Shown here: positions 9,217 to 64,000 of the stretch, one piece after another
Position numbering within the stretch: the first letter of the stretch is position 1
Layout of the letters: each line of letters starts with the position of its first letter
Assembly (NCBI RefSeq): GCF_900142205.1
Contig: NZ_FRAA01000001.1
Span: 1,324,796 to 1,388,795, forward strand
From: Reichenbachiella agariperforans
GTDB taxonomy: Bacteria; Bacteroidota; Bacteroidia; Cytophagales; Cyclobacteriaceae
Length of the DNA stretch: 64,000 bases
Reading direction: 5' to 3'
Position numbers and translations under genes: made by a program
Notes under the pieces: model-generated
What the model was told of the DNA's origin: nothing
The model's input: only the letters and a program-made list of their open reading frames with translations
Database searches by the model: none

Positions 9217-9217
9217 T

Positions 9218-14144: not shown

Positions 14145-14204
14145 TAGGTTAAAAAAAGGAATGGCTGATACCAGCCATTCCTCTACGATTATTACTCAAT
14201 CTAT

Positions 14205-15713
14205 TTAATAACCAAAATTCTGATCATCATTAGAAAGACTACTATTAAAATTAATCTCTTGCTGCGGGATAGGAAAAACCTCATGCTTTCCTGCTTCGAA
14301 CCCGAAAGCACTTAGCTCCTGCTCAGCCAAACCCCATCGAACCAAATCCGGAAATCTCACCTGCTCACCAGCCAGCTCTACCATACGCTCATGTACGATC
14401 GCATCAAAAATCTGTGCTTTCGTACCTACTGGATATCCAGCGGCATCCATCACGGCGGTACCGTAATTAGGCATACCTACACGGTCTCTGACCTCATTTA
14501 GGTAACCGATCGCATCTGCTGCTGTTCCTACTTCGTTCTCGATCTCTGCCATCATCAACAGTACATCCGCATAACGAATGACCCTGAAGTTGATCCCAGA
14601 TTCTTGATTTTCATTGGCATCCTTATAGTAGTTGCTATACTTTCTCCACGCTTGAGTACGCTGTACCGCTGGGTCTCCATAGGCAGGAAGGCTCACTGTC
14701 CCTCCAGCAAATGCATCTCCATTGAAATAAAAATTGCCGCTCAACCTAGGATCCCCTGTTTCGAACTCTGCAACCAAGGCATCTGATGGATAAGCATTGT
14801 ACCAGTCATTCCATCCATACTCCTGTCCACGGAAAGTACTGGCGATAAATCCACTACCCGAAGCGTCAGAATTCCACTGGTCAGACTTCCCTACAGCTAT
14901 ATCATAAGACACTTCAAAAATTGACTCTGCATTGAACTCAGTCTCTTCCAAGAAGTTGTCAGTATAATCCGCTACTAAAGAATAATCTCCGAGGATATTG
15001 TTAAAAGCCGTTTTCGCAGCACCATAATTGCCGCGATATAACTCCATTTTACCCATCAAAGCATAAGCAGCTCCACTGGTAGCTCTACCGTTTTCTGCAT
15101 CACCTGCCGCGAACAACTTATCAGCAGCATCAGTTAAATCCAGTATGATCTGGTCATACACTGCACTCACGGGGCTCTTCGGTGTTCCTTCACCCGAAGT
15201 AGGTGTCGTGATGACCAACGGGATGTCTCCAAACCGAGTACCCAACAAGAAGTAATAATAAGCTCTCATGAACTTAGCTTCTCCGATAAAGTTATCCTTC
15301 ATCGCATCAGTAAAGTCAGCCGAAACGATAGCTCTGATTTTTTCTTCGTTATCGATCACATAGTTACACTTGTTGATTCCACGGTAGCAACTCTCCCAGT
15401 ATGCTCTAATCAATCCATGACTCGGATCGAAAGTAAAGTTCAAATACTGCACCTTATCTGCTTCCAGTTGTGGGTTTCCAGAATTCTCATGAGACATGTT
15501 ATCCATAGAGAAAAACATCCCTCTAGAATACAGTCCTCTCGTCTGAAGGTTGGCATACACAGCATTGACTGCAGACTGGGCTTGCGCCTGAGTCACCAAA
15601 AATGTCTCAGGAGACAAATCGTTCGGATTGGTCAACTCCAACTTATCTTGATCACAGGCATTGAGTGCCAATAAAGACATCAATCCTGCTATTATATATC
15701 TGTTAAATTTCAT
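14205..15713 (-). CDS. SusD/RagB-family surface glycan-binding lipoprotein
   Basis: 502 residues with a lipoprotein signal (LMSLLALNAC, Cys near 20). It has typical SusD features: LSPETFLVTQAQAQSAVNAVYANLQ near the N-terminus, YWESCYRGINKCNYVID, the TPR-like helices AKFMRAYYYFLLGTRFGDIPLV, and the C-terminal INFRVIRYADVLLMMAEIENEVG, followed by EVRDRVGMPNYG and HERMVELAGEQVRFPDLVRWG. It caps the SusC barrel and delivers oligosaccharides. It lies 18 bases after SusC and is certainly its partner. Family length is normal. Confidence 0.97.
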   Translation of the reverse strand: MKFNRYIIAGLMSLLALNACDQDKLELTNPNDLSPETFLVTQAQAQSAVNAVYANLQTRGLYSRGMFFSMDNMSHENSGNPQLEADKVQYLNFTFDPSHGLIRAYWESCYRGINKCNYVIDNEEKIRAIVSADFTDAMKDNFIGEAKFMRAYYYFLLGTRFGDIPLVITTPTSGEGTPKSPVSAVYDQIILDLTDAADKLFAAGDAENGRATSGAAYALMGKMELYRGNYGAAKTAFNNILGDYSLVADYTDNFLEETEFNAESIFEVSYDIAVGKSDQWNSDASGSGFIASTFRGQEYGWNDWYNAYPSDALVAEFETGDPRLSGNFYFNGDAFAGGTVSLPAYGDPAVQRTQAWRKYSNYYKDANENQESGINFRVIRYADVLLMMAEIENEVGTAADAIGYLNEVRDRVGMPNYGTAVMDAAGYPVGTKAQIFDAIVHERMVELAGEQVRFPDLVRWGLAEQELSAFGFEAGKHEVFPIPQQEINFNSSLSNDDQNFGY

Positions 15714-15731
15714 AATGATTCCTGTTTACGA

Positions 15732-18700: not shown

Positions 18701-18857
18701 CGGCATCTGTGACTTTTCCTTTGACCGTAATGTCATCCATACTCATGGTTCGAGACGAAGCGTGCGTCATCACGCCTGTCATCAATAGACACTGTGTCAA
18801 AACAATCGATAGCACTGCTCTTTTGAGAGCAATTACTTTTAGTAATCGTTTTTTCAT
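15732..18857 (-). CDS. SusC/RagA-family TonB-dependent outer-membrane transporter
   Basis: 1041 residues with a signal peptide to about residue 33. An N-terminal carboxypeptidase-regulatory-like domain follows (VKGKVTDADDGSGLPGVNVLIKG...), then the SusC-specific TonB box region EEVVVVGYGEQRR (near residue 126). The plug domain has PTVTIRGLNS and PLYVIDGV ... IESIQVLKDASTTAVYGSKGSNGVIMITTK. The 22-stranded barrel ends in an aromatic C-terminus (IAGIEITF). It imports oligosaccharides released at the surface, driven by TonB. No N-terminal FecR-interacting signalling domain is visible, so anti-sigma control is unlikely. First transporter gene of the minus-strand operon. Confidence 0.97.
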   Translation of the reverse strand: MKKRLLKVIALKRAVLSIVLTQCLLMTGVMTHASSRTMSMDDITVKGKVTDADDGSGLPGVNVLIKGSATGTVTDLDGNYTITADEAGTLVFSFIGYLTQEAPISGRSTVDVSMALDVKSLEEVVVVGYGEQRRSEVTGAISSVSSKDVVSVPVATADQALQGRAAGVTVINNGSPGTSPTVTIRGLNSTSNNGPLYVIDGVISSGMGSLNPNDIESIQVLKDASTTAVYGSKGSNGVIMITTKGGQAGKVTVDINAYAGTQWTSNRYDLLDTDEYIQYATDAFGAPTRMTDPQYSAMLENDTDWQDEIFQQGAMQSYNVGVSGGGENSAFRISGGYLSQEGIIISTGMDRYNFRANSNFSIGKLKIGENVSISVSEQNPETSNGGRSVIEHAIKSAPYLPVYNENNLGGYQGPNSSIDGQDAENPVRVLEMGSISDKRMTVIGNIYAQYEIISGLNFKSQVGGEFQNFDYRLFKPSYDDDSDGATHAQNFALIGHSQGSLQTVIFTNSLNYKKTFAEKHNLELLALAEQTSTITQNLNARSNNEISDDVNQVSTTDVNLSSYTNEYIRVGYLGRINYNYDGKYLVGASIRTDASSRFGANNRWGTFPSVSAGWRVSEEPFLQGVSAISNLKLRGSWGKTGNDNIGNYLYSTNVVSNFHYGINGGDALGATASGLANPDLKWEETAMTNIGLDLGLLNNQFTLAAEYYINKSSDILMPRVLPLSSGFHNGSVTENIGQMETKGVELNLGFQDFEGDFQWSASLLFGTSKNEVLDLGENDAITGATFEGQDISRTEVGHPAFQFYGWQFDGIFQNQGEIDAHATQPNAEPGDFRIVDVDGNGEITDDDRTFIGNPFPKFTYGLNLAASYKGLDFSLFFNGVSGNEIYNTNIYDLEGMPRLFNSGTAVLDRWTGDGSSNSIPRAGGAGTNLQTSSRFVEDGSFSRLRNVTLGYDLTRLGGVGDIFTNCRVYVSAQNLLTFTKYSGLDPEVGAYSNREVNSPPGAIGSTPTNANGQPTGNFESGVDRGNYPMPKSFIAGIEITF

Positions 18858-18946
18858 AATAGTTTGCTTTTAGTAATTAAATAGTAAGTCGAATTCTCAG
18901 AATTCGATGCAGCTGGGACTACTCCAATAGTCCCAGCCTATATCTG

Positions 18947-21580
18947 TTATAGGATATTCACTGTTTTGGTTAACACTTGCGAACTCTTCGCATCAGCCAC
19001 GCCTTCAAATCCTGGCTGCTTTCCTCCTACTATTACTTCCAACTCCCCCGGCTCTACGATCACCTGTCCGTCTTGTGTGATCTGTGCATATTGCTCTGCA
19101 GAGATTTCAAAACTCACGTTTTGGCTCTGCCCTTTTTCTAGCACAATTCTTTCAAACCCTACCAGCGATCTCTTCGCTGCATTCGGGTTATTCTTTCTAT
19201 TTGACACATACAACTGTACCACTTCCTCTCCTGCTCTGTCCCCTGTATTGGTCACGGATACTGACACAGTCATGACATCCCCCGCTTTGGTCTCCGCTAC
19301 ATCGAACTGATCATAAGCGAAACTGGTATAGCTCAACCCGTGACCAAAAGGAAACAAAGGCGCTCCTTCGAAGTATTTATAAGTTCGATTCGTCATGTCG
19401 TACGTTTTAAAATCTGGTAGATCCTCCGTTGACTTGTAGAAAGTCACAGGCAGTTTACCTCCTGGGTTGTAATCCCCAAATAGCACATCGGCTATCGCCT
19501 CTCCACCAAACTCACCTGGATACCAGGCCTCTAGAATAGCGGGGACGTTCTCAGCAGCGAAATTCACTGCCAAGGCGCTCCCGTTCATCAAAACTACTAC
19601 CGTCGGTTTGTTCAATTGATAGATTGCTTTTAGCAGCTTTCGCTGTGAAGCAGGTAGCTGAATGTCTGATCGGTCTCCCGAATCAAACCCTTCTAACACT
19701 ACAGGCATTTCTTCTCCTTCGATATCTGGCGTCAATCCAAGGCACATCACCACTACATCTGCTTGCTGGGCTGCTGCGACAGCTGGAGTCAACAGGTCTT
19801 CATTCAATTTTGCCCATAGCAATTGTGCCTGTGGATCAGCATGGAAGTTGTAATAATCGATTTTGATATCATACGACTGACCAGCAGTCAATTCCATATC
19901 ATAGTATTTCATCGTAGGGTGGTGATCATCTTGGAAGTCAATTCTCAATTCACCGTTGATGTACACTTTGCCTACATTACAGGCTCTGAACCCAATACGG
20001 TAGGTTCCCGACTGATCCGCCACGAGCTGACCTGTCCATCTAACCGTAAACGTATCAGTTGCCAATTCTTTGATCGGTCTATCTAACCATACAAAGTCCA
20101 CCGTCTCGTCGGTCCGTGAGATACTTGGGTCTCCCTCCCATTTTTCGTTCGGAAAATACTCGCCTTTCAGTCCATTCTTTTCACCAGACCTTAAGTTCTG
20201 ACTAGGGATGGGTGTCAGCAGTGGCCAGCCTTCAGCTACTGCAGATCCTTTAGCATAGATCACTTTGGCATTGGGCAACTTCGACTTGATCCCTTGATAA
20301 GGAGTAACCTGACTAACAGGCGTACCGTGGTAATTGCCTAACAGCGATTGCTTGTCATTGGCATTGGGTCCGATGACCGCCACAGTCGATACCTCCTTGC
20401 TCAGTGGCAATAAGTTTCCTTCGTTCTTTAGCAACACCATAGACTCTAAAGCTGCTTTCTTGGATAGCTTGTGATGCTTTTCACTCGCTACCACACTATA
20501 TGGAATACTAGCATAAGGCACCAAACTTTCATCATCGAACATTCCTAACTTGAACCGTGCTGCCATCAATCTAACGAGCGCTTGGTCTACTTCCGATTCA
20601 TCGATGAGTTCTTTGAGTACTGCTTCGCTCAGATTCGGGTCATAGGTATCTCCACAGTTGAGATCTGTTCCGCTTTTTACCGCGAGAGCAGACGCCTCCT
20701 CTGGTGAGTCAGATACTCCATGTCGATTAGGCATATAAAAATCGTTGATCGCCCAGCAGTCAGATACCACATAGCCATCAAATCCCCATTCATTTCTAAG
20801 GATATTGGTAAGGAGTAAATTACTCCCACAACATGCCTCGTCTCTATATCTATTGTAAGCACACATGACAGACTGCACGTTAGCTTCTTTGATCGCTGAT
20901 TTAAAAGCTGGAAGGTATGTTTCTTTTAAGTCCTTGTCAGAGGTTTGATAGTTGTCTTCGTGTCTTGATTTTTCAGGACCACTGTGCACTGCGAAATGCT
21001 TGGCCGTGGCGACTACTTTCAAATATTTCGGATCATCACCTTGTAGTCCTTTGATAAACTCCACACCCATGCGGCTGGTCAAATAGGGGTCTTCTCCATA
21101 AGTTTCCTGGCCTCTGCCCCATCTCGGATCACGAAAGATGTTAATATTAGGTGTCCAGAACGTCAACCCTTGATATATCCCTCTTTTATTTTCGCTGATA
21201 AACTTATGATGCTTGGCACGTGCTTCGTCCGAGATCACTGTAGCGACATTAGACATCAGATTCACATCCCAAGTAGCTCCCATTCCTATTCCTTGTGGAA
21301 AAACCGTTGACACACCTGCTCGACCTACTCCATGCAAGCACTCATTCCACCAGTTGTATCTCGGGATACCCAAACGAGGTACCGCAGGCGCGTCATACTT
21401 CATTTGAGACACCTTCTCTTGTAAGGTCATTTGGTTCACCAAGTCGATCGCCCTTTCTTCTGGGGCTAGATCAGGGTTCATATACGCATACTGGTAGGCA
21501 TTCTCCTGACTACACATGGACAACCCCATCAACACTACTACCGCCGCTACTGCGCGTACTACTTTAATCATGCTCTTCAT
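18947..21580 (-). CDS. GH3 beta-glycosidase with inserted PA14 domain (beta-xylosidase/beta-glucosidase)
   Basis: About 877 residues from the ATG at 21580, which gives a lipoprotein-like signal (AVVVLMGLSMCSQ); extending upstream to 21664 only adds an implausible Cys/Trp-rich head. Order: GH3 N-terminal barrel with WWNECLHGVGR and the nucleophile region GYVVSDCWAINDF; the (alpha/beta)6 domain (AVIGPNANDKQSLLGNY); an inserted PA14 module (GLKGEYFPN...VRWTGQLVADQSGTYRIGF); then the rest of the domain (EAWYPGEFGGEAIADVLFGDYNPGGKLPVTF) and a C-terminal Fn3-like domain. It should hydrolyse terminal beta-xylosyl or beta-glucosyl residues. First gene of the minus-strand utilisation operon, 89 bases before SusC. 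Confidence 0.94.
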   Translation of the reverse strand: MKSMIKVVRAVAAVVVLMGLSMCSQENAYQYAYMNPDLAPEERAIDLVNQMTLQEKVSQMKYDAPAVPRLGIPRYNWWNECLHGVGRAGVSTVFPQGIGMGATWDVNLMSNVATVISDEARAKHHKFISENKRGIYQGLTFWTPNINIFRDPRWGRGQETYGEDPYLTSRMGVEFIKGLQGDDPKYLKVVATAKHFAVHSGPEKSRHEDNYQTSDKDLKETYLPAFKSAIKEANVQSVMCAYNRYRDEACCGSNLLLTNILRNEWGFDGYVVSDCWAINDFYMPNRHGVSDSPEEASALAVKSGTDLNCGDTYDPNLSEAVLKELIDESEVDQALVRLMAARFKLGMFDDESLVPYASIPYSVVASEKHHKLSKKAALESMVLLKNEGNLLPLSKEVSTVAVIGPNANDKQSLLGNYHGTPVSQVTPYQGIKSKLPNAKVIYAKGSAVAEGWPLLTPIPSQNLRSGEKNGLKGEYFPNEKWEGDPSISRTDETVDFVWLDRPIKELATDTFTVRWTGQLVADQSGTYRIGFRACNVGKVYINGELRIDFQDDHHPTMKYYDMELTAGQSYDIKIDYYNFHADPQAQLLWAKLNEDLLTPAVAAAQQADVVVMCLGLTPDIEGEEMPVVLEGFDSGDRSDIQLPASQRKLLKAIYQLNKPTVVVLMNGSALAVNFAAENVPAILEAWYPGEFGGEAIADVLFGDYNPGGKLPVTFYKSTEDLPDFKTYDMTNRTYKYFEGAPLFPFGHGLSYTSFAYDQFDVAETKAGDVMTVSVSVTNTGDRAGEEVVQLYVSNRKNNPNAAKRSLVGFERIVLEKGQSQNVSFEISAEQYAQITQDGQVIVEPGELEVIVGGKQPGFEGVADAKSSQVLTKTVNIL

Positions 21581-21984
21581 AAATTCACTGTTAACACTAC
21601 TAGTTTTACAAAAATGAAATGAGGACAAAAAACAGAGCGACCAATGCCAAAACCAACAACCCATCCATCAGCCATTGCCATTTCCGCCTACTCTTCATTT
21701 TTATTCCTAATTATTTCAAAATCGTAGAAGCAATTAACAGAAGTATCTCTTCTAGAAATAGCACAAATCAAGCATACACCATCAATTTTGATGCGAATCA
21801 GCAGGTTCTATAGGTTTATGCATCATTTGTTTCAGTTCATGCATCATGCGTACTATTTCAGGCTGACCTAGAACACATATGGACTTTTCTTCTTTCATTT
21901 CCCTTCTAAAAAAATTACACTAAACAATACCCACCTTAACCAACCATCTATTAATCAGTATAGTTACAAAAACACGCAGAGTAT

Positions 21985-42283: not shown

Positions 42284-45220
42284 ATGAGATCACTACTATT
42301 TGTCCTCGTCCTCTCTCTAGCCGCTCAGCAGCTCTTCTCCCAAAAACTAATCATCGATAACCAAGGACATTCGGGGCTTGTACATGGCTTAGCTTTTACT
42401 GAACAAGGGAAAAAACTAGTCTCTGTCTCAGAGGACAAAACTGTAAGAGTCTGGGATGTAGCATCAGGTACATTAACCAAAACCTATAGATTCGAAATTG
42501 AAGACGGAGTTGATGGTAGAATATACACTTCGGTACTTTCCAAAGATGAACGATTCCTGTTTTTGGGTGGTTATTTTGACCATCAAGAAGGGAATCCAAG
42601 TGAGATAGGACAGATTCGTATCCTTGACTTAGAGGAAGAAAAACTACTACCAAGCCTAAAGGGACATCAAAATGTCGTACTTGATTTGGCAATCTCTCAG
42701 GACGGAAAAAAGTTAATCAGCAGCTCAGCAGACCAATCCATCATAGCATGGGACATTAGCAACATGAGAGCTCCCGTACGATCGGCCACTATCACAGGGA
42801 TCGAGAGCATCATCAACAGCATAGACATTAGCGAAGACGGTAGTACCATCGCCGCTGGTGACCAAGACGGAAATTTAAGAACCTGGTCTGTATCTGGAGG
42901 AAACCCCAGCAGGTCCATCGTCCACTCGGATGCGATACGAGATGTAAAATACGCTGGAAATCAACTCTACTCCGCCGGAGAAGATGGACAGATCATCAAA
43001 TGGACAAAGTCAGGGAAATTCATGGGACCACTCACAGAACTCCCAGGAGCCGTCAACGCACTAGAAGTATCAGCAGACAACCGATATCTTACCGCCATGG
43101 GAAGAGTGGGTATCGTCTACGACTTATCTAACCGGACACTAATTACCCAGTTCAGCTACCATACCAATGTAGTAAGTGCTATCACCACCGCTCCTTTCAC
43201 TACTTTCGACCAAGAGAAAGGCATCTATGTCGCATCTGCTGGTGGTGATGACAAGAACATTCTCCTATGGAACATCCTATCTGGACAACTCGAAAGAAAC
43301 TTTGTCGGGAAAGGCAAAAGTGTATTCGGCGTGGGAATTGATGAAGCAGCCAACAAAATAGCCTTCAGTCAAAGCAATCCAACGGGCATCCTAGATGATG
43401 TAGTGCTAGAAAAAGCATTCGACCTAGAGGAACTGGCGCTAGACAGAAAGCTAAACCCTGAGAACAAATATCATCGCGCAACCCAAGCTGCATCCAACAA
43501 ATTCATCAGTAAAGAGTCCTCTAATTCCATCAAAGTAGATGGACGTATGATAACTACTGATGACCGAAAAGACGGTACCGTACGTTCATTCACTTTCATC
43601 AATAAAGGCAATGCACTGGCTCTTGGCTCTTCCTACTCATTGAACAAATATAACGTATCAGGCTCCTTGTTGGGTAGTTTTCAAGGACACGAAGGAGAGG
43701 TATGGGCGCTAGCTGATTTTGCATCAAAGGATCTACTCCTATCAGCAAGTAATGATCAGACCATCAAAATTTGGAATAATATTACTGGCGAAAACCTAGC
43801 ATCTCTCTTCGTAGCATCAGACAATGAGTGGGTAATATGGACTCCTCAAGGATTCTATGAAGCATCTGCAGGTGGCGAGAAGTATATCGGATGGCATATC
43901 AACCAAGGACAGAACAATCTAGCTGTTTTTCATGACGTATCAGCCTTCGCATCCTTCTACCACAGGCCTGATGTCATACAGGAGATTTTGAAGCTTAAAT
44001 CTTTTGACAAAGTAGCTCAGATGATGAATCTCTCGGACAAACCAGAAGAGAAAATCACTCCCCCAACCGTGACATGGATTACAGAGACTAACACTATTGT
44101 AGAGGGGCATACGACCACACTCAGCTTCGATATCACCTCCCCTACGCCAGTACATCAGATCAAAATACTAGCAGATGGGCGACCACTCATACACCAGTCT
44201 GAATTATCTATTTCTGGTGATAACCGCACCGAGCGTGTAGATATCCCAATAGAATTACCAGAAGAAACGGACAAGAGCTTTGCCTTCACGGTATTCGTCG
44301 CAGATCAAAACTCTAAAATATTATCTACAGAGCGCCATGTGGCCTTTGAATACATCGCACCAGAAGAAGAAAATGAACCTGACACTTCTAGCCCCGTAGC
44401 AGCTACGCCTAGAGGTGAAGACGCCTCCGCAAGCAATGCCATAACTACTTTAGATCCAGTGCCTACCAAAATCAAAAAGAGCAATCTGTATTTGGTATCC
44501 ATAGGAATCTCCGAGTTTGCCGAGTCGCACAACAATCTCAACCATGCTGACAAAGATGCAGATGCGATAGATGAGCTATTCAAAGGACAGCAAGGCAAGA
44601 TGTTCAATAATGTCACTAGCATTAAACTCACGAACGAAAAAGCTACCAGAGCGAATATTTTACAGAAGTTCCAACGACTTGAAGAATTCACCACTGTGGA
44701 TGATTTCGTTATCATATTCATCGCTTCACATGGGCTCAATGAGAACGACAATTTCTACCTACTACCCTACGACGGTAGTACCAAGACCCCTAGAATATCA
44801 TGCATAGACTGGCGAGATTTTTCTGACATGATCGGAAATATTTCAGCGCGAGTCGTCTTGTTCATAGATACCTGCCACAGTGGTCAACTGGGCAACAATA
44901 TGGGACAACACAAAGTCAACAATACAGAAGCCGTTCGCCAACTCTCGGGGCAAGAATATGGAGTCGTCATCATGGCTGCTTCTACAGGTGCTGAGTATTC
45001 TTTTGAACATCAAGATTGGGGACATGGTGCTTTTGCGCTATCCATACTCGAAGGAATAGGCGAGGGAAAGGCCGATGTCAAACCCGATGGCGTAATTTAT
45101 CTGAGAGAACTAGACTATTACCTATCCGAACGCGTACAAGAACTCACTGGAGGTAGACAGCATCCTACGACACAAAAACCGAGTTCTATCAGTAGATTGT
45201 CTCTTGCAGAGGTTCAATAA
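42284..45220 (+). CDS. Exported WD40-repeat / caspase-like (C14) protease
   Basis: 978 residues with a signal peptide (LFVLVLSLAAQQLFSQ). WD40 blades fill residues about 25-560 (for example GHSGLVHGLAF...SEDKTVRVWD; GHQNVVLDLAIS...SADQSIIAWD; GHEGEVWALADF...SNDQTIKIWN). A linker with an Ig-like beta-rich stretch follows (TPPTVTWITETNTIVEGHTTTLSFDI), then the caspase domain. The catalytic dyad is present: His816 in IASHGLNENDNF and Cys864 in LFIDTCHSGQLG. A predicted export signal is notable, because most described caspase-like proteins act in the cytoplasm. Neighbours are DUF4384/LPP20-like and TerB-like genes. Confidence 0.92.
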   Translation: MRSLLFVLVLSLAAQQLFSQKLIIDNQGHSGLVHGLAFTEQGKKLVSVSEDKTVRVWDVASGTLTKTYRFEIEDGVDGRIYTSVLSKDERFLFLGGYFDHQEGNPSEIGQIRILDLEEEKLLPSLKGHQNVVLDLAISQDGKKLISSSADQSIIAWDISNMRAPVRSATITGIESIINSIDISEDGSTIAAGDQDGNLRTWSVSGGNPSRSIVHSDAIRDVKYAGNQLYSAGEDGQIIKWTKSGKFMGPLTELPGAVNALEVSADNRYLTAMGRVGIVYDLSNRTLITQFSYHTNVVSAITTAPFTTFDQEKGIYVASAGGDDKNILLWNILSGQLERNFVGKGKSVFGVGIDEAANKIAFSQSNPTGILDDVVLEKAFDLEELALDRKLNPENKYHRATQAASNKFISKESSNSIKVDGRMITTDDRKDGTVRSFTFINKGNALALGSSYSLNKYNVSGSLLGSFQGHEGEVWALADFASKDLLLSASNDQTIKIWNNITGENLASLFVASDNEWVIWTPQGFYEASAGGEKYIGWHINQGQNNLAVFHDVSAFASFYHRPDVIQEILKLKSFDKVAQMMNLSDKPEEKITPPTVTWITETNTIVEGHTTTLSFDITSPTPVHQIKILADGRPLIHQSELSISGDNRTERVDIPIELPEETDKSFAFTVFVADQNSKILSTERHVAFEYIAPEEENEPDTSSPVAATPRGEDASASNAITTLDPVPTKIKKSNLYLVSIGISEFAESHNNLNHADKDADAIDELFKGQQGKMFNNVTSIKLTNEKATRANILQKFQRLEEFTTVDDFVIIFIASHGLNENDNFYLLPYDGSTKTPRISCIDWRDFSDMIGNISARVVLFIDTCHSGQLGNNMGQHKVNNTEAVRQLSGQEYGVVIMAASTGAEYSFEHQDWGHGAFALSILEGIGEGKADVKPDGVIYLRELDYYLSERVQELTGGRQHPTTQKPSSISRLSLAEVQ

Positions 45221-53847: not shown

Positions 53848-54058
53848 CCTCACAGACTCATAACAGGTGGTTATTTCAAAGAAAAACAATAACGAATTTC
53901 GAACCATAAATCTTGAATAACGGAGTGATCTGTCTCTTTGACTAATGAAATGTAGGCTCAACATGCCTGACTTCAACCTGACTTCAATACTGTTTAGATA
54001 GGCTTGAAAGAATCTAATATAACCGTGGGGAATCTGTCTAACATCTAAACAGCTCCTC

Positions 54059-54235
54059 AACGCACGTTTGGATACTATCCTAGACCAAGACACCTCCTCA
54101 ACGCACATTTGGACACTATCCGAGATCAAGACACCTCCTCAACGCACATTTGGACACTATCCGAAATCAAGCCCCCCCCTCAACGCACATTTGGACACTA
54201 TCCGAAATCAAGACACCCCCTCAACGCCCGTTGGA
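54059..54235. repeat. 41-bp tandem repeat, about four copies
   Basis: The block aacgcacatttggacactat plus a spacer recurs at 54059, 54100, 54141, 54182 and (truncated) 54223, exactly 41 bases apart, with scattered substitutions. Because 41 is not a multiple of three, ORFs crossing it are artefacts. It lies in the largest gene-free stretch of the window (53738-55135). Confidence 0.92.
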
Positions 54236-54648
54236 GAGCCTGTAGCGATAGAAACACTTGTCTAACAGCCATTGTGCAGGCAGATCGGCTTGATTTGCTT
54301 ATCGAACGCCTGTCGAGCAAGACACACAAAGTCTGATAGCTTCTAAACTAACGTTGTAGTGGTAGATTGATTCAGTACAATACTCTGACGGACGTGTAGG
54401 AGGGGAATAAACCTGTGGTAGGCGTGCAACCGATGTAACTACTGATGCGAACGCTATGTCTTTAAGTTTAGATTTTTATCCGGTACGATAGGAGAAATCT
54501 AAACACAAACCCTTTCAGAATGGCTAAGATCCCTCCGTCGGGATGATACAATGGAGCGTATGCGTTTAAACCTAAATTCGATTTTAGCTTTCATTAAAAC
54601 CGCTTCTGAAATGCATCAATTGTTCTTTGTCTTCAAGCCAGACAGACT

Positions 54649-54729
54649 CTTCCTTTTTTCATTGCCAAAAAAGGAAGCAAAAAGGCTAGAAAATTATAAA
54701 CTCGCTATCGCTCAGACAGTATAATTTTC
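54649..54729. repeat. Pair of palindromes, dispersed-repeat-like
   Basis: Two inverted pairs in series: cttcctttttt (54649-54659) with aaaaaaggaag (54667-54677), and gaaaattata (54689-54698) with tataattttc (54720-54729). Such arrangements recur as dispersed intergenic elements in this phylum (from memory; not verified here). Confidence 0.5.
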
Positions 54730-54905
54730 AAAAACCTTGAATTAAGAAGATGATTTATATCCTTTACTAATCGAACTCAGGTTTTAACTTAACGACATGG
54801 GGTGAGTTGAATAAATAGAAGGGCGCTTTGCCAGAAACAAACCTTACCCCACAGGCAATAAACCAAGCATTGAAACAAAGTGAAAAATACCACTAGAGCC
54901 TCTTA

Positions 54906-54951
54906 AACCCTTCAAGATTTATCTTCACTTAGAAAGAAGTCTTGAAGGGTT
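54906..54951. repeat. 12-bp-arm inverted repeat
   Basis: aacccttcaaga (54906-54917) and its complement (54940-54951) with a 22-base loop. A second hairpin (gaggtg/cacctc) lies near 54999-55014, just before the dispersed upstream repeat. No gene is supported in 53738-55135. Confidence 0.55.
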
Positions 54952-55015
54952 GGTTGGGAGTATATAGAATCTGGATTGGTGCTCCGTCGAGTTTTTAGAG
55001 GTGTCAGCACCTCTT

Positions 55016-55121
55016 TCATCTTGCCACTTTGGGTCTATTGCCCTATTTTACTTTCTATTACAGTCAAGGCATTCTTCATATCAGGTTCAGTGTTAGAGGG
55101 GTACTTTGATAAGAACAGTAA
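55016..55121. repeat. Dispersed upstream repeat, copy 2
   Basis: Partner of 1417-1524 in the same orientation, and likewise shortly upstream of a lone AT-rich gene. The shared block includes a conserved ccctattttactttctatta core. Confidence 0.6.
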
Positions 55122-55135
55122 TTAAGAAGAAGAAT

Positions 55136-56410
55136 ATGAAAGTTACGAAGTTGTTAGTGTTAATATGTCTTTTCAGCCATCCTCTTTTATCTCAACATTC
55201 CGTCGAATCCCAAATTGACCGTTTACATCAGTATGTCGGGCATTGGGTGAGTAGCATCCATTCAGATACGGATAGTGTTGCTGCATTTCCTCATATTAAA
55301 ATGAATAACATCTCAAAAATGGACAAGCTCTCCATGCAGGTGGAAGTACTTCAATATCAAAAGGGAGAATACAATCCCCTACTCACAGAATTGATTGCTT
55401 ATGATTCAAATAGCAATCAGATTATTGCTTTAGGACAGAATAAAGACGCTATAGTTTTCAAAGGAACAGGACGTTTTTCTAATGAAAAAGAATGGGAAAT
55501 GCAGGATGTAGATATGTTGGGCAATTTTTACCTGCATGTCAAATTTGATTTTCAAAGCTTTTCAAATGTACTATTGGAGGGATTTGATGAGTCTGGTAAA
55601 AGTCTTTGGAAAACCCGATATATTAAGTCTAACCCAAAAGATAAAAAAATCGGCATTCAATTAGTTTCTGTTCATCAAGATATGCTGAAAGACCCAGTGG
55701 GAACGTTGCAGGAGTTAGGACGAATGGGCTATAGTTATATAGAAACTTTTGTTTATAATGATGGTACATTTTACGGCATGTCACCTGCTGAATTTCGAAA
55801 AGTGGTAGAAGCTGAAGAAATGCAATTTTTAGGCTCTATGACGTTTCATGACCTCCCTACTTCTGACTCTTGGGAAAGCTCTATGAAATGGTGGTCGAAA
55901 TGTATAGACGACCATTTGGCAGCAGGCGTAGAATACTTAACGACCTCCAATAACCAACTCAAATCAGTTAAAACCAAAGCGGAATTGCAACGCTATTGCG
56001 ACTATTACAATACGATTGGAAAATTATGTAAAGAGAAAGGTATCACCTTTGCTTTTCACAACCATGCAGATGAATTTGGGGTGATCGATGGGAGCCTAAT
56101 ATATGATTATTTATTGGAGAATACGGATCCTGAATATGTTCATTTCCAAGCTGATATTTATTGGATGGATATAGGCGGAGTGAAAGCGGTTGATTATTTT
56201 CAAAAATATCCCAAGCGGTTTATAAGTTGGCATATCAAGGATTATAAGGAGTTGGGCGCAAGTGGGAAAATTAATTGGATGGAATTATTTCATCACCCTG
56301 ATTTTGACGTGCCAAAATATATGGTCACAGAGGTGGAAGATTATTCTTACCCTCCACTATATAGTGTTCAGTTGGCTTGGGAATATTTATACTATCAAAT
56401 ATTGGATTAG
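55136..56410 (+). CDS. Secreted sugar phosphate isomerase/epimerase-like TIM-barrel protein
   Basis: About 424 residues from the ATG at 55136, which starts a signal peptide (LLVLICLFSHPLLSQ). Residues 20-175 form an N-terminal domain that I do not recognise (HVKFDFQSFSNVLLEGFDESG). The C-terminal half is a xylose-isomerase-like TIM barrel: KIGIQLVSVHQDMLKDPVGTLQELGRMGYSYIE, ITFAFHNHADEF, VHFQADIYWMDIGG, and FISWHIKDYKEL, with His, Asp and Glu residues in metal-binding positions. Exported members of this family are common in Bacteroidota, and substrates are usually unknown. A repeat lies just upstream (55016-55121). Confidence 0.85.
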   Translation: MKVTKLLVLICLFSHPLLSQHSVESQIDRLHQYVGHWVSSIHSDTDSVAAFPHIKMNNISKMDKLSMQVEVLQYQKGEYNPLLTELIAYDSNSNQIIALGQNKDAIVFKGTGRFSNEKEWEMQDVDMLGNFYLHVKFDFQSFSNVLLEGFDESGKSLWKTRYIKSNPKDKKIGIQLVSVHQDMLKDPVGTLQELGRMGYSYIETFVYNDGTFYGMSPAEFRKVVEAEEMQFLGSMTFHDLPTSDSWESSMKWWSKCIDDHLAAGVEYLTTSNNQLKSVKTKAELQRYCDYYNTIGKLCKEKGITFAFHNHADEFGVIDGSLIYDYLLENTDPEYVHFQADIYWMDIGGVKAVDYFQKYPKRFISWHIKDYKELGASGKINWMELFHHPDFDVPKYMVTEVEDYSYPPLYSVQLAWEYLYYQILD

Positions 56411-56430
56411 ACATCTTTGCCCCCACTCAT

Positions 56431-56448
56431 CCTCGTTTCCGAACGAGG
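56431..56448 (+). terminator. Hairpin after the isomerase-like gene
   Basis: cctcgtt / aacgagg arms with a 4-base loop, 20 bases after the stop. There is no T tract, so terminator function is uncertain. Confidence 0.35.
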
Positions 56449-56507
56449 GCGGGTAGATTCCCCCAGTTATTTTGAATAGTAATACCTTGATCGATGACAG
56501 TATCGTG

Positions 56508-56539
56508 AAGCAGTTGGCTAACGAAATTTCAAAAAGCCG
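56508..56539. repeat. 32-bp direct repeat flanking the chimeric receptor, left copy
   Basis: aagcagttggctaac...aaaaagccg matches 60919-60950 with one substitution by eye; similarity continues weakly upstream (tcgatNNcag). The receptor gene at 56971-60774 lies between the copies. Confidence 0.8.
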
Positions 56540-56710
56540 GATCCAGCTCGGTCGCATTCCCTAATGCAACCGACATCTTCTTGGCATTTATAATATCCAT
56601 TGGCAGAGACCATACCCGATTTTTCTCTTCCAAATCCAAGGTACAGTTACGGTTTTCAAAACTTCCCTTTACCCTTACCCTTACCCAAAGGTTGCTTTAC
56701 CAGGCCCCAA

Positions 56711-56790
56711 AGGTAAGCTAACCTATAGCTGGAGGTTAACTTACCTTTGGCTATTCGCTACTTTAAAAAAAGGAGGAGGTAAGCTTACCT
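56711..56790. repeat. AAGCTTACC-type repeats, second locus
   Basis: Cores aaggtaagctaacc (from 56711), ggttaacttacc (56735-56746) and aggtaagcttacc (56778-56790) are spaced about 22 or 43 bases, as at 2512-2635. The remainder of 56411-56970 shows no gene. Confidence 0.6.
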
Positions 56791-56970
56791 TTTTGGGTAT
56801 GCTCCCTTTAGCACAATCCCCAGTCACAGTCGGCTATTCTCATTGGTTCAATTAAGCAATGAAACAATAATAACTCATAAATGATCGATGAGTTATACTG
56901 AAGAACGAATAGTAATACTTGTTATTTGCAAAAAAAGGTACATTTACCATCGACAGCATGACGAGGTGAG

Positions 56971-59900
56971 ATGAATTACAGATTTTCAATTGGTATCAGA
57001 CGAATGGTCTATATGATACTTTTTATTGGGCTAAATTTTAACGCCCTATCCCAAAACAATCGATACAATTTCCAAAAACTATCCTTAAATGAAGGCCTAT
57101 CCCAAAGTACGGTTTTCTGCACGACACAGGACAAGAATGGTTTCATTTGGATCGGTACCCGTACAGGAGGCTTAAACAAATATGACGGGTATTCATTTGA
57201 TCATTACATCAAAAACCCCGATGACAGCACCAGTATTAGTGGCAATGAAATCATATGCTTATTAGAGGATTCGAAAGGAAATCTCTGGGTAGGCACCAAT
57301 AGTGATGGTCTAAACTCGTTTGATTATACCTCAGAAAAATTCAAGCGCTTTTACAGCGAAGGTCAATCCCCAAACACCCTAAATCAGAAGTCAATTAAAG
57401 ATCTGATAGAAGATGAAAATGGGTTAATATGGATCGCAACCGAAGAGGGGCTATTCACACTGAATCCATCCGAAGAGTCATTTAGTGAAGTCTCAAATAG
57501 TCTATTAAAAACCACGCACTATGGTTTTGTGTCTGACCTTAGCCTTGGAAAAAAGGGCGAACTTATAGTAGGAGCTTCTCAAGGCTTGTTCGTCGTGGAT
57601 ATAAACAGTCGACTGACCAAAAAAGTATTTGACCACACGATTTTTAACCAAAGCTCGGATGACATATCGAACAGAATCAAGGATATCCTCTATGATGACA
57701 AGGGCAACATCTGGTACGGCACGCACCGAAATGGACTCTACCAGATTACTGATTTTGACAACAATGAAGCGCAATTATATTCCGCAGAAGAAGGCTACAA
57801 TATTTCAAGCACTTTTATCAGAACTATTGATCAAGACTCTAATGGCAACATTTGGATAGGTACTAATCAAGGGCTTAATCTTTTAAAGCATCATGAATCT
57901 GCCAATGACCAACCCGAATTCATACACATCCAAAGTAATGAGACCGATAACAAAAGTTTAAGTCAAAATTCCATCTATTGCTTTGATGAGGACAATAAGG
58001 GCAACTTTTGGATAGGAACCTGGAGTGGTGGTTTGAATTATTTGCACAACGAAAAGCAGAAGTTTGATCACTACAAGCATTTGTTTAATGTTGATTCTTC
58101 TTTGAGTAACAATTCGGTTACTAGTTTCTGTGCCAATGACAAGGGAATCTGGGTAGGCACAGCCTATGGAGGACTCAATCTTTTCGACCCCCAAAAGGGC
58201 ACTTTCTCTTCCTACCAACAAAGCTCTTACGCCCACAAAGGGCTCAACAGTGACCATATGAAGGCGCTCACTATTGATGGAAAGGATAATTTTTGGATAG
58301 GAACCTACCAGGGCCTCCTGCTCTTTGATGATGACAAGGGTTCGTTTGAAACCATCTTGGATAACACTACGATCAATTGCATCACGGAGGGTAATGATAA
58401 TGACATTTGGATAGGAACCAGTACACTTCTCAAGCTCGACAATGTCACCAAAAAGTATCAATCGTACCCTCATAACCCCGATAACCTTACGAGCCTTTCA
58501 TCAGGAGCGATCAATTGTATATTCAAAGACTCGCAAGACAACATCTGGATAGGTACCAGCTATGGTCTCAACAAATACATCCCAAGTCTAGATCAGTTTG
58601 AACGATACATTCATGACAAGAACAACCCCAACAGTTTGAGCCATTATAACATTACCACCATCAACGAAGACTTGAATGGTAACATCTGGGTAGGTACTCT
58701 CGGTGGCCTCAATAGATTAAAAGAAGATAAAAAAAGCTTTGAACGGTATGATCAACGGCATGGACTACCTGACAACTCTATTAGCAATTTAGTCATCGAT
58801 GACTCAGGTGTCTTTTGGGTGACGACTAACAAAGGCATGAGTAAAATATCATTCTCGATCGATTTCGAAAACATGTCCATCCGAAACTATGATATCTATG
58901 ATGGGTTGCAAGACTATGAGTTCAGTACGAATTCATCCTATAAAGATGATCAGGGCAATATATACATAGGTGGGATCAACGGTTTTAATCATTTCGCTCC
59001 TACTGAAGTCAAAGACAATCAAGAAATCCCAAACATCATCGTGACACACTTTAAACTCGACAACAAGGAGGTCTCTATTGACGATATCAACTCGCCCCTT
59101 GACCGGCATATTTCCGAAACAGATTCCATCACACTCACACATAAACAAACGGATATTATATTCGAATTCGTAGCACTGAACTACACCTCTCCAGAAAAAA
59201 ACCAATACGCCTACATGATGGAAGGGTATGATAGTGAATGGAAACAATCAGGCAATCGTCGACAAGCCTATTATACAAACCTACCCTCAGGCCAATACAC
59301 GTTTAGAGTAAAAGGCTCCAACAATGACAACATATGGAATGAAAAAGGAGCCTCAATATACCTGAACATCCTCCCTGCTTGGTACAACACGTGGTGGTTT
59401 AGAACCATCGTCATCCTGATCATAGTCTCCTCCATTATATATTTCAATATATGGAAATCCAAAAAATACAAAAAGGACAAAGAGAAGCTTAATGATCAAA
59501 TCAACAATGCCACCGAGCAAGTCATTGCTCAAAACGCCGAACTAGAGACACAAAAAAACAGTCTATTAAAAGCGGTTAGTGAAATCAATTTGGTCGTATC
59601 CGAGGCGGTAGAGTCTGGCAATTTCAAAGCAAGAATCAACCTAGACGGCATGGATGGCGAATGGAAAAATCTCGGAGTATCTGTCAACAAAATGTTTGAG
59701 TCAGTACTCAAGCCATTTTCTGAAATCAATCGAATCGTTGACGGCATGGCTTCTGGGGATTTATCCAAAAGGTATACAGATGAGGCAAAAGGTGACGTGG
59801 CACTGCTTTCGACGAATCTGAATTCAGCTTTAGACTCCCTGTCCGATCTGCTTTCTAATCTTAAAGAGCAAATAGCTTCGATAGGGAGCTCGACAGATGA

Positions 59901-60774
59901 CATGACCCATACCACCGAAGAAATCAATAATAGCACCAGCGAAATAGCATCTGCCATTGCTCAAATGAGTAGTGGAGCACAGCAGCAAGTGGCGAATGTG
60001 GATCAGTCATCAAACATCATAGAAGGAATATTGAAGTTTTCTAGTGACATGAAAAGACAAGCCTTTGAAATCAATGAAGCTACGAAAATAGGGGTTGAAA
60101 AGAGTCAGGCAGGTATGCAACAAATGGGCACACTGGACACCCAAATGAAGGACATACTATCTTACTCCGCAGAAACAACAGAAGCTATAAAAATCCTAAC
60201 ACAAAGATCAAATGACATCAACGCCGTCCTAAGAATTATAGAAGATGTCGCGTCACAAACCAACCTTCTAGCGCTCAATGCCGCCATAGAAGCTGCGCAA
60301 GCAGGTGATGCAGGGAGAGGTTTTGCCGTCGTAGCTGAGGAAATCAGAAAACTAGCAGAAGATTCGAAAGTGTCAACTTCCAAAATCCAAAAACTTATTT
60401 CAGGTGTACAAACGGTCACCTCTTCTACAGCCTCGCTCGTCTCCAAAATGAGTTCAAGAATTACAGAAGGAAGTGAGGCCACCAAACACTCACTTTCTGC
60501 TTTCCAAGACATTTCAACAGGGTATGAAGATACCTTAAAAAAATCTGAAAATATCGTCACCGCTACCAATCAGCAAACAAATGACCTAGGCAATGTGGTA
60601 AATATGATGGACGAAATAGTAGTGATAGCAGAAGAAACTGCAGCAGGTACTGAACAAACCGCCAGCTCGGCGACTCAACTTTCGGCGGGTATGGAAAACC
60701 ACCTACAAAAAAGCAAAGAAGTGTCTTCCATCACCTATGCCCTACGTTCAGAAGTCGACAAGTTCAAACTGTAG
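56971..60774 (+). CDS. Chimeric receptor: two-component-regulator propeller + Y_Y_Y + HAMP + methyl-accepting chemotaxis domain
   Basis: 1267 residues. Signal/anchor segment ([17 protein letters not shown]). About 13 repeats of the regulator-propeller pattern D..GNIWIGT..GGLN fill residues about 30-690. A Y_Y_Y domain follows ([42 protein letters not shown], about 748-790), then a membrane helix ([18 protein letters not shown], about 808-828). The cytoplasmic part has HAMP-like helices ([17 protein letters not shown]) and a methyl-accepting signalling domain with the conserved tip region [25 protein letters not shown] (near 1093-1117). Normally this sensor is joined to a histidine kinase and AraC output. 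The ends appear intact and the domains are in one frame. Confidence 0.93.
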
Positions 60775-60813
60775 CCTTCTCCTTCACTTAAAGCTGTCTT
60801 ATAGCCTCTACAT

Positions 60814-60862
60814 GGTCACCACCAGACAAATGGTCACTTTATTCCTGTGGCTGGTGGTGACC
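60814..60862 (+). terminator. Stem-loop after the chimeric receptor
   Basis: ggtcaccaccag (60814-60825) pairs perfectly with ctggtggtgacc (60851-60862) around a 25-base loop, 40 bases after the stop. No T tract follows, so it could be a terminator or a regulatory/mobile-element structure. Confidence 0.45.
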
Positions 60863-60918
60863 TTACGTTTTGGTTTCATTCAGTCACATTCCAAACACCA
60901 TCTTCGATCAGCATCATC

Positions 60919-60950
60919 AAGCAGTTGGCTAACAAAATTTCAAAAAGCCG
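60919..60950. repeat. 32-bp direct repeat flanking the chimeric receptor, right copy
   Basis: Right-hand partner of 56508-56539. It lies between the receptor and the transglutaminase-fold gene. Confidence 0.8.
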
Positions 60951-61007
60951 AGCGCCTAAGCTTAGCATTTTTCTTATCTTGTCGCCTTATCAATCCTCCC
61001 GTATTTG

Positions 61008-62669
61008 ATGAAAGTATATTGCCTCCTTAGTCTATTTTTTCTTGCCCTCATACAGCCACTGGCTGCACAGATCCACACCTATACAGTCGACCTGAACAAC
61101 ACATCTGTGGGCTCTTACCAAACGAGCGTTCACATCGCTGACACCATCCACACCACGCAGCAGCTGCAGCTCAGCCTCGTCACCCTACAAGACAGCACCT
61201 CTATCTTCATCCAGACCCGCTATCAAGAAGACGCCATAGGTCAGCTACTATCCGCCACCAACGACATCAGCCTATCACCAGGAGATACGATTCACTCCAC
61301 CTACTCGAACGACTCATTGATCACATCACTCGGTGATTCGAGTTACTTTCAGATGGTTTTGGGACCATACGGGACACAAAAAGTCAGTCAGAGCACACTC
61401 CATCATCTCCAAGACAGTATTCGGTTCCGTACCTACTCACCAGACCTCCATCAGGTCGTCACTGTATTCAGAACGCTAACCGACACCAAGGTCATTCGTG
61501 CCCAAAAATACTGGGTCATCCATGACTCCATCGCCCAACTGCCAGCTGTAGAGAGCCTCTACGATTTGGACTTCCAATGCTACGCCTCTCAGCAGGCTGG
61601 GCCATTCGGCAAAATGGAAATACGTCCAACGAAAAAAACCGTACATACTTCTCCCCTTCTATCCCTACAAGATGACCAAAAAATCATTTCGTCCAACATC
61701 TGGCTACCCGATCCAAAAAACATCAATGCCATCCAACTCCTGATCACCACGACAGCCGGCGATACCCTAGAGACCAGCATGGCAGACAATCAGTTCTACC
61801 CACTCCCTACAGACAGCCTAGAACTAGCCCACTGTACCGAGTCTACACCCTGGATCAACAAGGACAATTTAGACTTGTTTTACATCGCCGATTCGCTATC
61901 ACGAGACCTAGCTTCCTCATTAGAAATGGCACAGGCGCTAACTCTCTATTGCCGTAGAACAGCTCCAAAGTACCCCGCCCTAGCCCTCATCAGACTGGCG
62001 AGATCCATCGACCTCCCAGCACGCATCGTACATGGCTACTATTACCAATACGGCTATTGGGTCAGCGCGCTTTGGACAGAAATCGGGATCGACGAAGAGT
62101 GGCAAATCTTCAATCCCAACAGTCATAGCCCTATCAATCCCAGCCTATACCTACCTATGGTTAAGAGCGACCTACATGATGGGCTTGCCCCACTATTTCT
62201 GCATCCCAAAATCGCTGCAATACAAACCACCAACTATCTGCGCAATGGAAACCCTATGTCATCCTTCGAAAGTGAGGAGAAACAAAAAGACACGCACTAC
62301 GAAAACCTGGGACTGGGACTATCATTTGACATCCCCAAAAAGTACACCCTCACCGAAGACACGACGGTCAAAATCAGTCCTCTACTCCTAGAGCTAAAAA
62401 ACGACACACACCACATCACGCTGAGCTATGTCACACCTACAGTGCTGTCCGAACAATGGATCGCACAATACCTACTACAGCACACAGGGCAGCTGGATAT
62501 ATCACGTAACAAATACCTAAACTCGAACAATTATCAGGCTATTTCAGAGACCAAGGCGATACTCGTCATACCGCAAGGTGGCAGTGTTTTCATTTGGAAG
62601 TTTGAAGGGACTCAACCCGAAAACATGATTGATGCGATCTGCAAGAAGAACCTATTGATAAAAAACTAA
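61008..62669 (+). CDS. Secreted transglutaminase-fold protein, apparently without catalytic triad
   Basis: About 553 residues from the ATG at 61008, starting a signal peptide (VYCLLSLFFLALIQPLAAQ). The first 280 residues are a beta-rich domain. A transglutaminase-like core then follows (ALTLYCRRTAPKYPALALIRLARSIDLPARIVHGYYYQYGYWVSALWTEIGIDEEWQIFNPNS). In active relatives this reads C...A....R..GIPAR.V.GY...HAW.E.....W...DP. Here the Cys position is Tyr, the HAW is SALW, and DP is NP, so all three catalytic residues seem lost. The C-terminal 150 residues form another beta domain. Probably a binding or structural protein. No terminator is seen. Confidence 0.75.
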   Translation: MKVYCLLSLFFLALIQPLAAQIHTYTVDLNNTSVGSYQTSVHIADTIHTTQQLQLSLVTLQDSTSIFIQTRYQEDAIGQLLSATNDISLSPGDTIHSTYSNDSLITSLGDSSYFQMVLGPYGTQKVSQSTLHHLQDSIRFRTYSPDLHQVVTVFRTLTDTKVIRAQKYWVIHDSIAQLPAVESLYDLDFQCYASQQAGPFGKMEIRPTKKTVHTSPLLSLQDDQKIISSNIWLPDPKNINAIQLLITTTAGDTLETSMADNQFYPLPTDSLELAHCTESTPWINKDNLDLFYIADSLSRDLASSLEMAQALTLYCRRTAPKYPALALIRLARSIDLPARIVHGYYYQYGYWVSALWTEIGIDEEWQIFNPNSHSPINPSLYLPMVKSDLHDGLAPLFLHPKIAAIQTTNYLRNGNPMSSFESEEKQKDTHYENLGLGLSFDIPKKYTLTEDTTVKISPLLLELKNDTHHITLSYVTPTVLSEQWIAQYLLQHTGQLDISRNKYLNSNNYQAISETKAILVIPQGGSVFIWKFEGTQPENMIDAICKKNLLIKN

Positions 62670-62731
62670 ATCTTGTCTCACGCCAGCTTAGAACTTCTAG
62701 TATTTTCAGCTCCATAACTTTCTAATCTTTC

Positions 62732-62739
62732 TATCTTTG
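62732..62739 (+). promoter_or_regulatory. Putative -7 element of metG
   Basis: TATCTTTG matches TAnnTTTG exactly, 16 bases before the GTG at 62756, implying a very short leader. No TTG is seen at the usual -33 spacing. Confidence 0.5.
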
Positions 62740-62755
62740 TCGAAAAAACGGACAC

Positions 62756-64000
62756 GTGCAAAAAGATTACAAAAGATACACCATTACTTCAGCCCTACCC
62801 TATGCGAACGGCCCGCTACACATCGGTCATATCGCAGGAGCGTATTTACCTGCCGACATCTATGTGCGCTTTCTTCGCGCCAGAGGCAAAGAAGTGACCT
62901 ACGTATGTGGCAGTGACGAACATGGTGCTGCGATCACGCTACGTGCCAAAAAAGAAGGAACTACCCCACAGGCCATCATTGACAAATATCATCAGATCAA
63001 TAAAGATACTTTTGAGAAATTCGGGATTGACTTTGACATCTATCACCGCACTTCATCACCGATTCATCATGAGACCTCACAGGAATTCTTCACCAATCTC
63101 TATGACAAAGGAGAGTTCGTCGAGAAGCAATCAGAGCAATTCTATGACGAGGAATACAACCAATTCCTCGCAGATCGATATGTCACCGGGACATGTCCTA
63201 ACTGTGCCTATGATGCCGCCTACGGAGACCAGTGCGAAAAATGTGGCACATCCCACAACTCCACCGACCTTATCAACCCAAAGTCTACACTGAGTGGCAA
63301 AACACCTATCTTAAAATCTACCAAGCACTGGTATCTGCCACTAGACAAATATCAGCCATGGCTCGAAAGATGGCTCATAGAAGGCAAACAAGGACAATGG
63401 AAACCCAACGTCTACGGGCAGTGTAGTTCTTGGCTCAAAGCAGGCCTACAGCCTCGTGCCATGACCAGAGACCTAGACTGGGGAGTAGATGTGCCACTAC
63501 CTGATGCAGAAGGCAAAAAACTATACGTATGGCTCGATGCGCCTATCGGGTACATCTCTGCGACCAAAGCTTGGGCCGCAGAAAAAGGAAAAAATTGGGA
63601 AGACTACTGGAAAACACAGAAGAAAAAAGAAGATGAATCATGTTTGATTCACTTCATCGGCAAGGACAACATCGTCTTTCACTGTATCATATTTCCTGCG
63701 ATCCTACATGCGCACGGTGACTACATCTTACCACAGAATGTACCTGCCAATGAGTTCTTGAACCTAGAAGGAGAGAAAATCTCTACGTCTCGCAACTGGG
63801 CGGTCTGGCTACACGAGTATCTCGAGGATTTCCCCGAGAAGGAAGATGTACTCAGATACGTATTGTGTTCTAATGCCCCAGAGTCCAAAGACAATGACTT
63901 TACTTGGAAAGACTTCCAGGCCAGAAACAACAATGAATTAGTCGCGATCTATGGCAATTTCGTCAATAGAGCGGTAGTACTAACGCACAAATACTTCGAC
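62756..64000 (+). CDS. metG: Methionyl-tRNA synthetase (3' end beyond the window)
   Basis: 415 codons up to the window edge, with no stop inside. The start is a GTG at 62756 ([35 protein letters not shown]); there is no ATG nearby and an exact -7 element precedes it. Visible motifs: HIGH-type LHIGHIAG, the zinc knuckle CPNC...[42 protein letters not shown], and the KMSKS equivalent KISTSRNW. Long Bacteroidota MetRS usually carries a C-terminal tRNA-binding domain, which would lie beyond 64000. Charges initiator and elongator tRNA-Met. Confidence 0.97.

Follow-up and report, generated by a model that had tools for sequence, protein, structure and literature searches.

We identified a chemoreceptor whose outer half is a propeller sensor of the hybrid-two-component (HTCS) type and whose inner half is a genuine methyl-accepting (MCP) signalling protein. 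The gene (56971..60774, + strand; ORF and Pfam) lies in the stretch of 64,000 nucleotides analysed here, referred to as the window. An earlier sequence-only reading had claimed that a single continuous frame joins propeller and Y_Y_Y domains, a membrane helix, and a HAMP region to a full MCP, and the open reading frame and Pfam domains bear this out. The gene encodes a genuine chemoreceptor variant that turns up repeatedly. Computation shows the order of its domains, its fold and the form of its signalling half, the presence of che genes and GldL in the genome, the recurrence of the architecture, and the exchange of halves between relatives. We put the probability of our whole proposal at roughly 0.57, namely that a glycan-type propeller would signal through a long MCP to the CheA of one che cluster (L020) and from there through CheY to gliding. 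To our knowledge, little is understood of the way in which gliding Bacteroidota locate polysaccharides, and the Bacteroides glycan sensors studied so far control transcription. Because the outer half of the receptor is of the polysaccharide-sensor type, the bacterium may steer towards a glycan, beyond switching on the genes to eat it.

Architecture of the receptor

The open reading frame at 56971-60774 (+) starts with ATG and encodes 1267 aa without an internal stop; all parts below lie on the same strand. A likely signal peptide (residues 1-28, 56971..57054), read by eye from the translation, is followed by a double beta-propeller sensor of Reg_prop repeats (residues ~34-675, 57070..58995; Pfam, model, and Foldseek) and a Y_Y_Y beta-sandwich (residues ~688-800, with the Pfam match at 737-800; 59032..59370; Pfam and model). 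The transmembrane (TM) helix (residues ~807-831, 59389..59463; hydrophobicity and model) is the one internal strongly hydrophobic stretch, besides the N-terminal signal-like helix seen by eye. Next come a linker (59464..59652), part of the stretch in which relatives change partners (window residues ~820-880), HAMP_2 (residues 895-957, 59653..59841; Pfam), and the MCP signalling domain (59842..60771). The hairpin tip, the expected CheA/CheW contact, is intact at residues 1096-1130 (60256..60360; motif and alignment), and one 10-residue match to the methylation-site consensus lies at residues 1224-1233 (60640..60669).

All four domains scored above their Pfam cut-offs: Reg_prop (E 5.3e-52), Y_Y_Y, HAMP_2 (45 bits vs. 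a cut-off of 24.3), which sits between the TM helix and the signalling helices, and MCPsignal at residues 1067-1212 (116.8 bits vs. 34.6). Pfam gave no match in the receptor to HisKA, HATPase_c, a receiver, or an AraC-type DNA-binding domain. The protein resembles Bacteroides HTCS such as BT4663 (PDB 4a2l, 4a2m) across its entire sensor half, with a double propeller, Y_Y_Y, and one TM helix, but has HAMP_2 and an MCP domain where HTCS have histidine kinase, receiver, and DNA-binding domains. A propeller protein annotated on an Agarilytica plasmid likewise combines a related sensor region with a non-kinase output; that output is a diguanylate cyclase, whereas ours is an MCP.

Likeness of the sensor half to BT4663

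By phmmer, the sensor matched BT4663 (4a2l/4a2m) at E 2.5e-119 with 776 of 785 query residues aligned, the stretch aligned to 4a2l being query residues 7-782 (protein 32-807). For residues 26-840, modelling with AlphaFold2 from 65 alignment rows (the window sensor plus 64 of 79 related sensors, with 15 left out) reached a pLDDT of 91.2 and a pTM of 0.87. The top ten Foldseek hits were all BT4663 chains (4a2m/4a2l; TM 0.80-0.83 by query and 0.87-0.90 by target), with BT3049 ranked next. The sensor half is thus predicted, at a pLDDT of 91, to fold like BT4663, whose PDB entry titles refer to heparin and heparan-sulphate sensing. From this likeness in sequence and modelled fold, a glycan is a plausible ligand class for the window receptor.

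Signalling half and che clusters

The nearest solved chain to the MCP half is 2ch7 (E 9e-23), a Thermotoga MCP. About 155 residues separate the end of HAMP_2 from the tip, and the tip from the C-terminus, equal to ~44 heptads and corresponding to the 44-heptad class (44H). The receptor is like long-form MCPs (e.g., Thermotoga 2ch7) in its HAMP, hairpin tip, length, and methylation consensus, but unlike them it has a propeller sensor of ~780 residues and only a single internal TM helix.

The genome contains 12 MCPsignal matches (Pfam), comprising 11 full-length MCPs and one 84-aa frame (G000:C18:110228-110434, L012) that holds part of an MCP signalling domain. The long form is found in nine of the 11 full-length MCPs, i.e., the window receptor and eight others, including the MCP of the L020 che cluster, which is 47% identical to the window MCP half. 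The MCPs of the second che cluster (L021) and of L027 are 25% and 23% identical to it, respectively, with four gaps relative to the long form (14, 7, 21, and 14 residues; 56 in all). Sensors of the other MCPs are Cache, four-helix, PilJ, or none recognised. Because the window receptor shares its long form with the L020 cluster MCP, unlike L021, it should belong to the L020 array.

Genome-wide MCPsignal and CheW searches agreed with the earlier observation that the window holds no che gene: its sole MCPsignal match is the receptor, and none of the CheW-domain matches, those of the two CheA among them, falls within it. CheA and CheW are encoded elsewhere, in the two che clusters, and coupling of the window receptor to CheA is likely. 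The L020 cluster encodes a CheY-like protein, CheR, CheA, CheB, two CheW, ParA, and an MCP. A response regulator of 426 aa and a CheX-like protein that scored under its Pfam cut-off are encoded there as well. The MCP in this cluster (L020:11497-14859) has PAS domains after its signalling domain, an unusual order, and in genome G1163 CheW- and ParA-like genes adjoin an MCP whose length is similar. CheW-domain proteins were also encoded in all six of the other fusion-carrying genomes tested.

Recurrence in other genomes

The source genome encodes a second such receptor (L019:2948-6784) of 1278 aa, 36% identical to the window receptor over its full length. A profile of four sequences, spanning Y_Y_Y to the MCP end, was used to search for further cases; its counts are lower bounds from overlapping genome samples in which few candidates were scored per genome. 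At least 25 full-span matches occurred in at least 12 of 245 genomes of the same family, the source genome included, and at least four of the eight listed genomes of its genus were among those with such matches. The phylum sample gave at least nine matches in at least five of 395 genomes, the phylum of a record titled Gemmatimonadetes at least three in at least two of 150, and that of a record titled KSB1 at least two in at least one of 82. A query for the junction was run against 295 genomes of the class; among the matches listed, the two receptors of the source genome alone spanned the whole query, and a further match in G103 covered query positions 1-203 at 35%. In 241 genomes of the order, only those same two, among the matches listed, began at the TM helix, and repeated propeller motifs lay upstream only at the window locus among 30 loci of the order checked by motif.

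Besides the two own receptors, 23 family loci (L226-L248) were inspected. A propeller frame was present in 22, the exception being L248, and the tip was found by motif in 21 of these 22 and by profile alone in L229. Pfam confirmed Reg_prop, Y_Y_Y, and MCPsignal in nine of nine scanned fusions from other groups (L249 and L250 were outside the scan). One candidate, G1076:C288 (profile 58-496), was rejected as a fusion and not counted, as its locus (L252) has no propeller frame. Of 12 plasmid records with a match, none covered 80% of the query. A contig scan by Y_Y_Y pattern turned up at least two fusions among 80 of 572 confirmed stretches, a figure that is no measure of frequency.

Membrane motif and tip could both be located automatically in 20 family receptors, and in every one of these 20 the distance between them was 291 residues, compared to 215-222 in three receptors of the Gemmatimonadetes phylum and 231-271 in six measurable receptors of other Bacteroidota. 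The MCP halves of the latter two groups fall outside the family's long-form MCPs, at a place in the tree where long branches meet. Similar fusions in Gemmatimonadota, KSB1, and other Bacteroidota sit on different MCP types, and it is likely that several independent fusions took place.

We also considered whether the architecture is already widespread and characterised. Several phyla have it, yet few of the genomes sampled do, and we found no characterised example. No paper describing a propeller-MCP architecture and no experimental study of a propeller-headed chemoreceptor turned up in our literature search, which was mostly by title and start of abstract, with subscription papers largely outside it. 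The accessible portions of PMC1183210, PMC11253607, and PMC3762733 do not describe it.

Exchange of sensor and signalling halves

Separate trees for the two halves of 23 receptors conflict. In an MCP-half tree (L229, lacking the tip motif, was left out), 20 of 23 family receptors form one clade with 100/100 support, outside of which fall the source genome's second copy and two near relatives. A conflict is seen in L240, whose sensor groups with L238/L239 (100/100) and whose MCP half groups with L243/L245/L247 (97/95). Neither grouping holds for the other half: the one with L238/L239 is rejected on the MCP data (p-AU 7e-5), and the one with L243/L245/L247 on the sensor data (p-AU 9e-8). Across six AU tests, with each group drawn from the other half's tree and both trees already seen beforehand, four rejected (7e-5, 0.028, 9e-8, and 3e-41) and two did not (0.097 and 0.098). 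Measured by identity, L240 is L238-like up to, and L245-like from, a point that falls within window residues ~820-880. With conflicting trees and a switch in identity near the membrane and linker, halves have recombined, and exchange between receptors is what these results support.

The origin of the sensors is a separate matter. An 89-row sensor tree needs seven label changes, six of them forced by starred branches; its 53 rows labelled HK are tip-less propeller genes or presumed kinases, a minority of them domain-scanned. We do not claim repeated capture of sensors from kinases, as a single clade for the sensors of 21 receptors was not rejected (AU p 0.43). A broader idea, which we offer tentatively and at less than even odds, is of a modular glycan-chemoreceptor family. 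Its polysaccharide-sensor heads would be swapped on a near-constant body at the membrane and linker, some beside the enzymes for their glycan, and gliders would gain glycan-specific taxis cassette by cassette.

Gene neighbours

Directly adjacent to the window gene, Pfam found a xylose-isomerase-like barrel upstream, a marginal transglutaminase-like match downstream, and no CAZyme. The gene is thus not encoded in a polysaccharide utilisation locus (PUL); one lies ~35 kb away in the window. This PUL (7564-21664) is of the xylan type, with GH43, GH10, FG-GAP/UnbV, SusD, a SusC-like plug, and GH3 with PA14. No CAZyme was found among the scanned neighbours of the second own-genome receptor.

Some relatives have more suggestive surroundings. 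L238 has a GH20 gene 202 bases downstream on the same strand, and 321 bases on from L239 is a gene 73% identical to that GH20 gene. L240 overlaps by ~10 bases with a chondroitinase-B-family gene (PL6), a further relative of which, a weaker one, lies upstream. L231, which in the sensor tree comes closest to the window receptor, is flanked by an alpha-L-rhamnosidase gene and by GH88 and 3-keto-disaccharide hydrolase genes, and L228 has an adjacent GH2 gene on the opposite strand. A sulfatase is the second gene downstream of L246; it was left out of the CAZyme count. Two loci were also dropped before counting: L234, which nearly duplicates L232, and L248, which lacks a propeller frame.

A CAZyme was the nearest gene on either side in at least five of 23 family receptor loci, a lower bound because receptor neighbours were scanned in part, vs. 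none of 17 other MCP loci. The length floor for neighbours was 100 aa for receptors and 120 aa for controls, and 32 of 34 control neighbours (10 + 22) were scanned, leaving out two long polyketide-synthase-like frames. The one-sided p was 0.051, or 0.089 with L238/L239 counted once. Removing six controls beside CheW- or ParA-like genes, a control bias, gave 0.12, and 0.18 when L238/L239 were also counted once. Counting as a CAZyme the Alginate_exp match (an outer-membrane family) beside control L027, which we had not done, likewise gave 0.18. The excess is suggestive at most, and with p from 0.051 to 0.18 against other MCP loci, CAZyme linkage was ruled out as proof of a glycan ligand. Of the earlier claim of glycan sensing on a chemoreceptor, then, the HTCS-type sensor on a genuine MCP stands, and the BT4663-like sequence and fold favour a glycan, but the relatives' CAZyme neighbours are not significant and none lies beside the window gene.

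Proposed mechanism and alternatives

The genome encodes GldL (E 1.2e-78). Flagellin had no match in it, and the search for a T2SSE/PilT-type ATPase gave two weak matches, neither of which reached the cut-off. With this gene complement, the source bacterium probably glides, and gliding is the likely output. We propose a single-pass chemoreceptor whose periplasmic BT4663-type double propeller and Y_Y_Y would bind an oligosaccharide-like ligand. Binding would move the Y_Y_Y pair within a dimer, and the motion would pass through one TM helix per subunit to HAMP_2 and the long-form MCP hairpin. For BT4663 itself, a scissor-like movement has been reported, according to the accessible part of a review (PMC8534201). 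The hairpin would modulate CheA via CheW of the L020 cluster, CheR and CheB would adapt the receptor by methylation, and phospho-CheY would bias gliding, with GldL of the T9SS motor as a plausible site of action.

In the available text of PMC10951265, the CheY-like domain of Flavobacterium johnsoniae PorX binds GldL, and a phosphoablative change prevents binding; that of PMC5005315 reports that Porphyromonas gingivalis PorX binds PorL. GldJ has also been proposed as a control point of T9SS rotation (PMC12239597, in part). In pectin-induced spreading of a gliding Flavobacterium, chemotaxis-associated proteins were not induced by pectin, as far as the available text of PMC8056085 goes. In the literature searched, some of it in partial form, we found no demonstration of a Che array acting on gliding, and the GldL binder shown is PorX, not a che-cluster CheY. 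By analogy, a che-cluster CheY might act on GldL here as PorX does.

These results must be weighed against other explanations. That the gene is an assembly join, or a decayed fusion without function, might be suspected because it is the only such gene in the window and the genome also has the 84-aa MCP fragment. Yet the sequence-only reading's worry about a frameshift or join near residue 830 is unfounded, as the second own-genome receptor and relatives in other genomes align through that point. The full second copy, full-span matches in at least 11 other family genomes, and the constant 291-residue spacing rule out a join, and with the tip and methylation consensus intact, we consider join and decay together extremely improbable. 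A more serious alternative is that the propeller senses a peptide, metabolite, envelope component, or partner protein instead of a glycan. This would fit the missing CAZymes beside the window gene and among its paralogue's scanned neighbours, the non-significant excess near relatives, and a weak resemblance to PorZ, a T9SS surface protein (NCBIfam 131.5 bits vs. a cut-off of 260; TM 0.30). Still, the nearest solved homologue is a glycosaminoglycan sensor, and some relatives directly adjoin GH20, chondroitinase-B-family, GH88, and rhamnosidase genes, so a non-glycan ligand deserves consideration but seems doubtful.

It could also be that a genuine glycan-type receptor joins a CheA array that controls polysaccharide or protein secretion, or gene expression, rather than movement. 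The genome has two che clusters, L020 also has ParA, the sub-threshold CheX-like protein, and the 426-aa response regulator, and in relatives the T9SS is a target of a CheY-like protein (PMC5005315 and PMC10951265, from the portions available). However, GldL is encoded, and the predominance of the long form (nine of 11 full-length MCPs) fits a main behavioural pathway; we regard a non-movement output as unlikely. The receptors supply named parts for both sides of the problem, that of finding glycans and that of linking a chemosensory array to the T9SS motor. One is a sensor half that could be produced by itself and has the fold of a solved homologue; the other is a signalling half that we place with one che cluster of the two. 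The first ligands to try are suggested by the receptors next to GH20, chondroitinase-B-family, or GH88/rhamnosidase genes, and the conflicting half trees point to natural swapping that could guide the design of chimeric receptors.

Flanking repeats and other features

A 29-base repeat flanks the receptor gene, with a left copy at 56511..56539 (+) and a right copy, one base different, at 60922..60950 (+), both from a repeat search and each within roughly 50 bases of similarity. It occurs nowhere else in the window with three mismatches allowed, and its exact matches among 299 loci were four (L009, L030, L060, and L170), all of them the window's own stretch. The left repeat region had no plasmid match, and Rfam had no match in 54000-64000. 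The repeats may be an insertion footprint; by eye, the 29 bases can also be read as a short coding remnant. Between the left copy and the gene lies a strong inverted repeat (56707-56750) with 18-base arms (94%) and an 8-base spacer; more copies like it occur upstream of the receptor gene.

A metG-like gene (62756-64000) follows the window receptor at a distance of 2 kb, and such a gene also lies 188-200 bases upstream of L243, L245, and L247; this shared neighbour is possibly a trace of a common position. Farther away in the window, the protein encoded at 42284-45220 combines WD40 repeats with a caspase domain (Peptidase_C14) at its C-terminus, and a WD40-caspase protein is likewise found near receptor locus L232.
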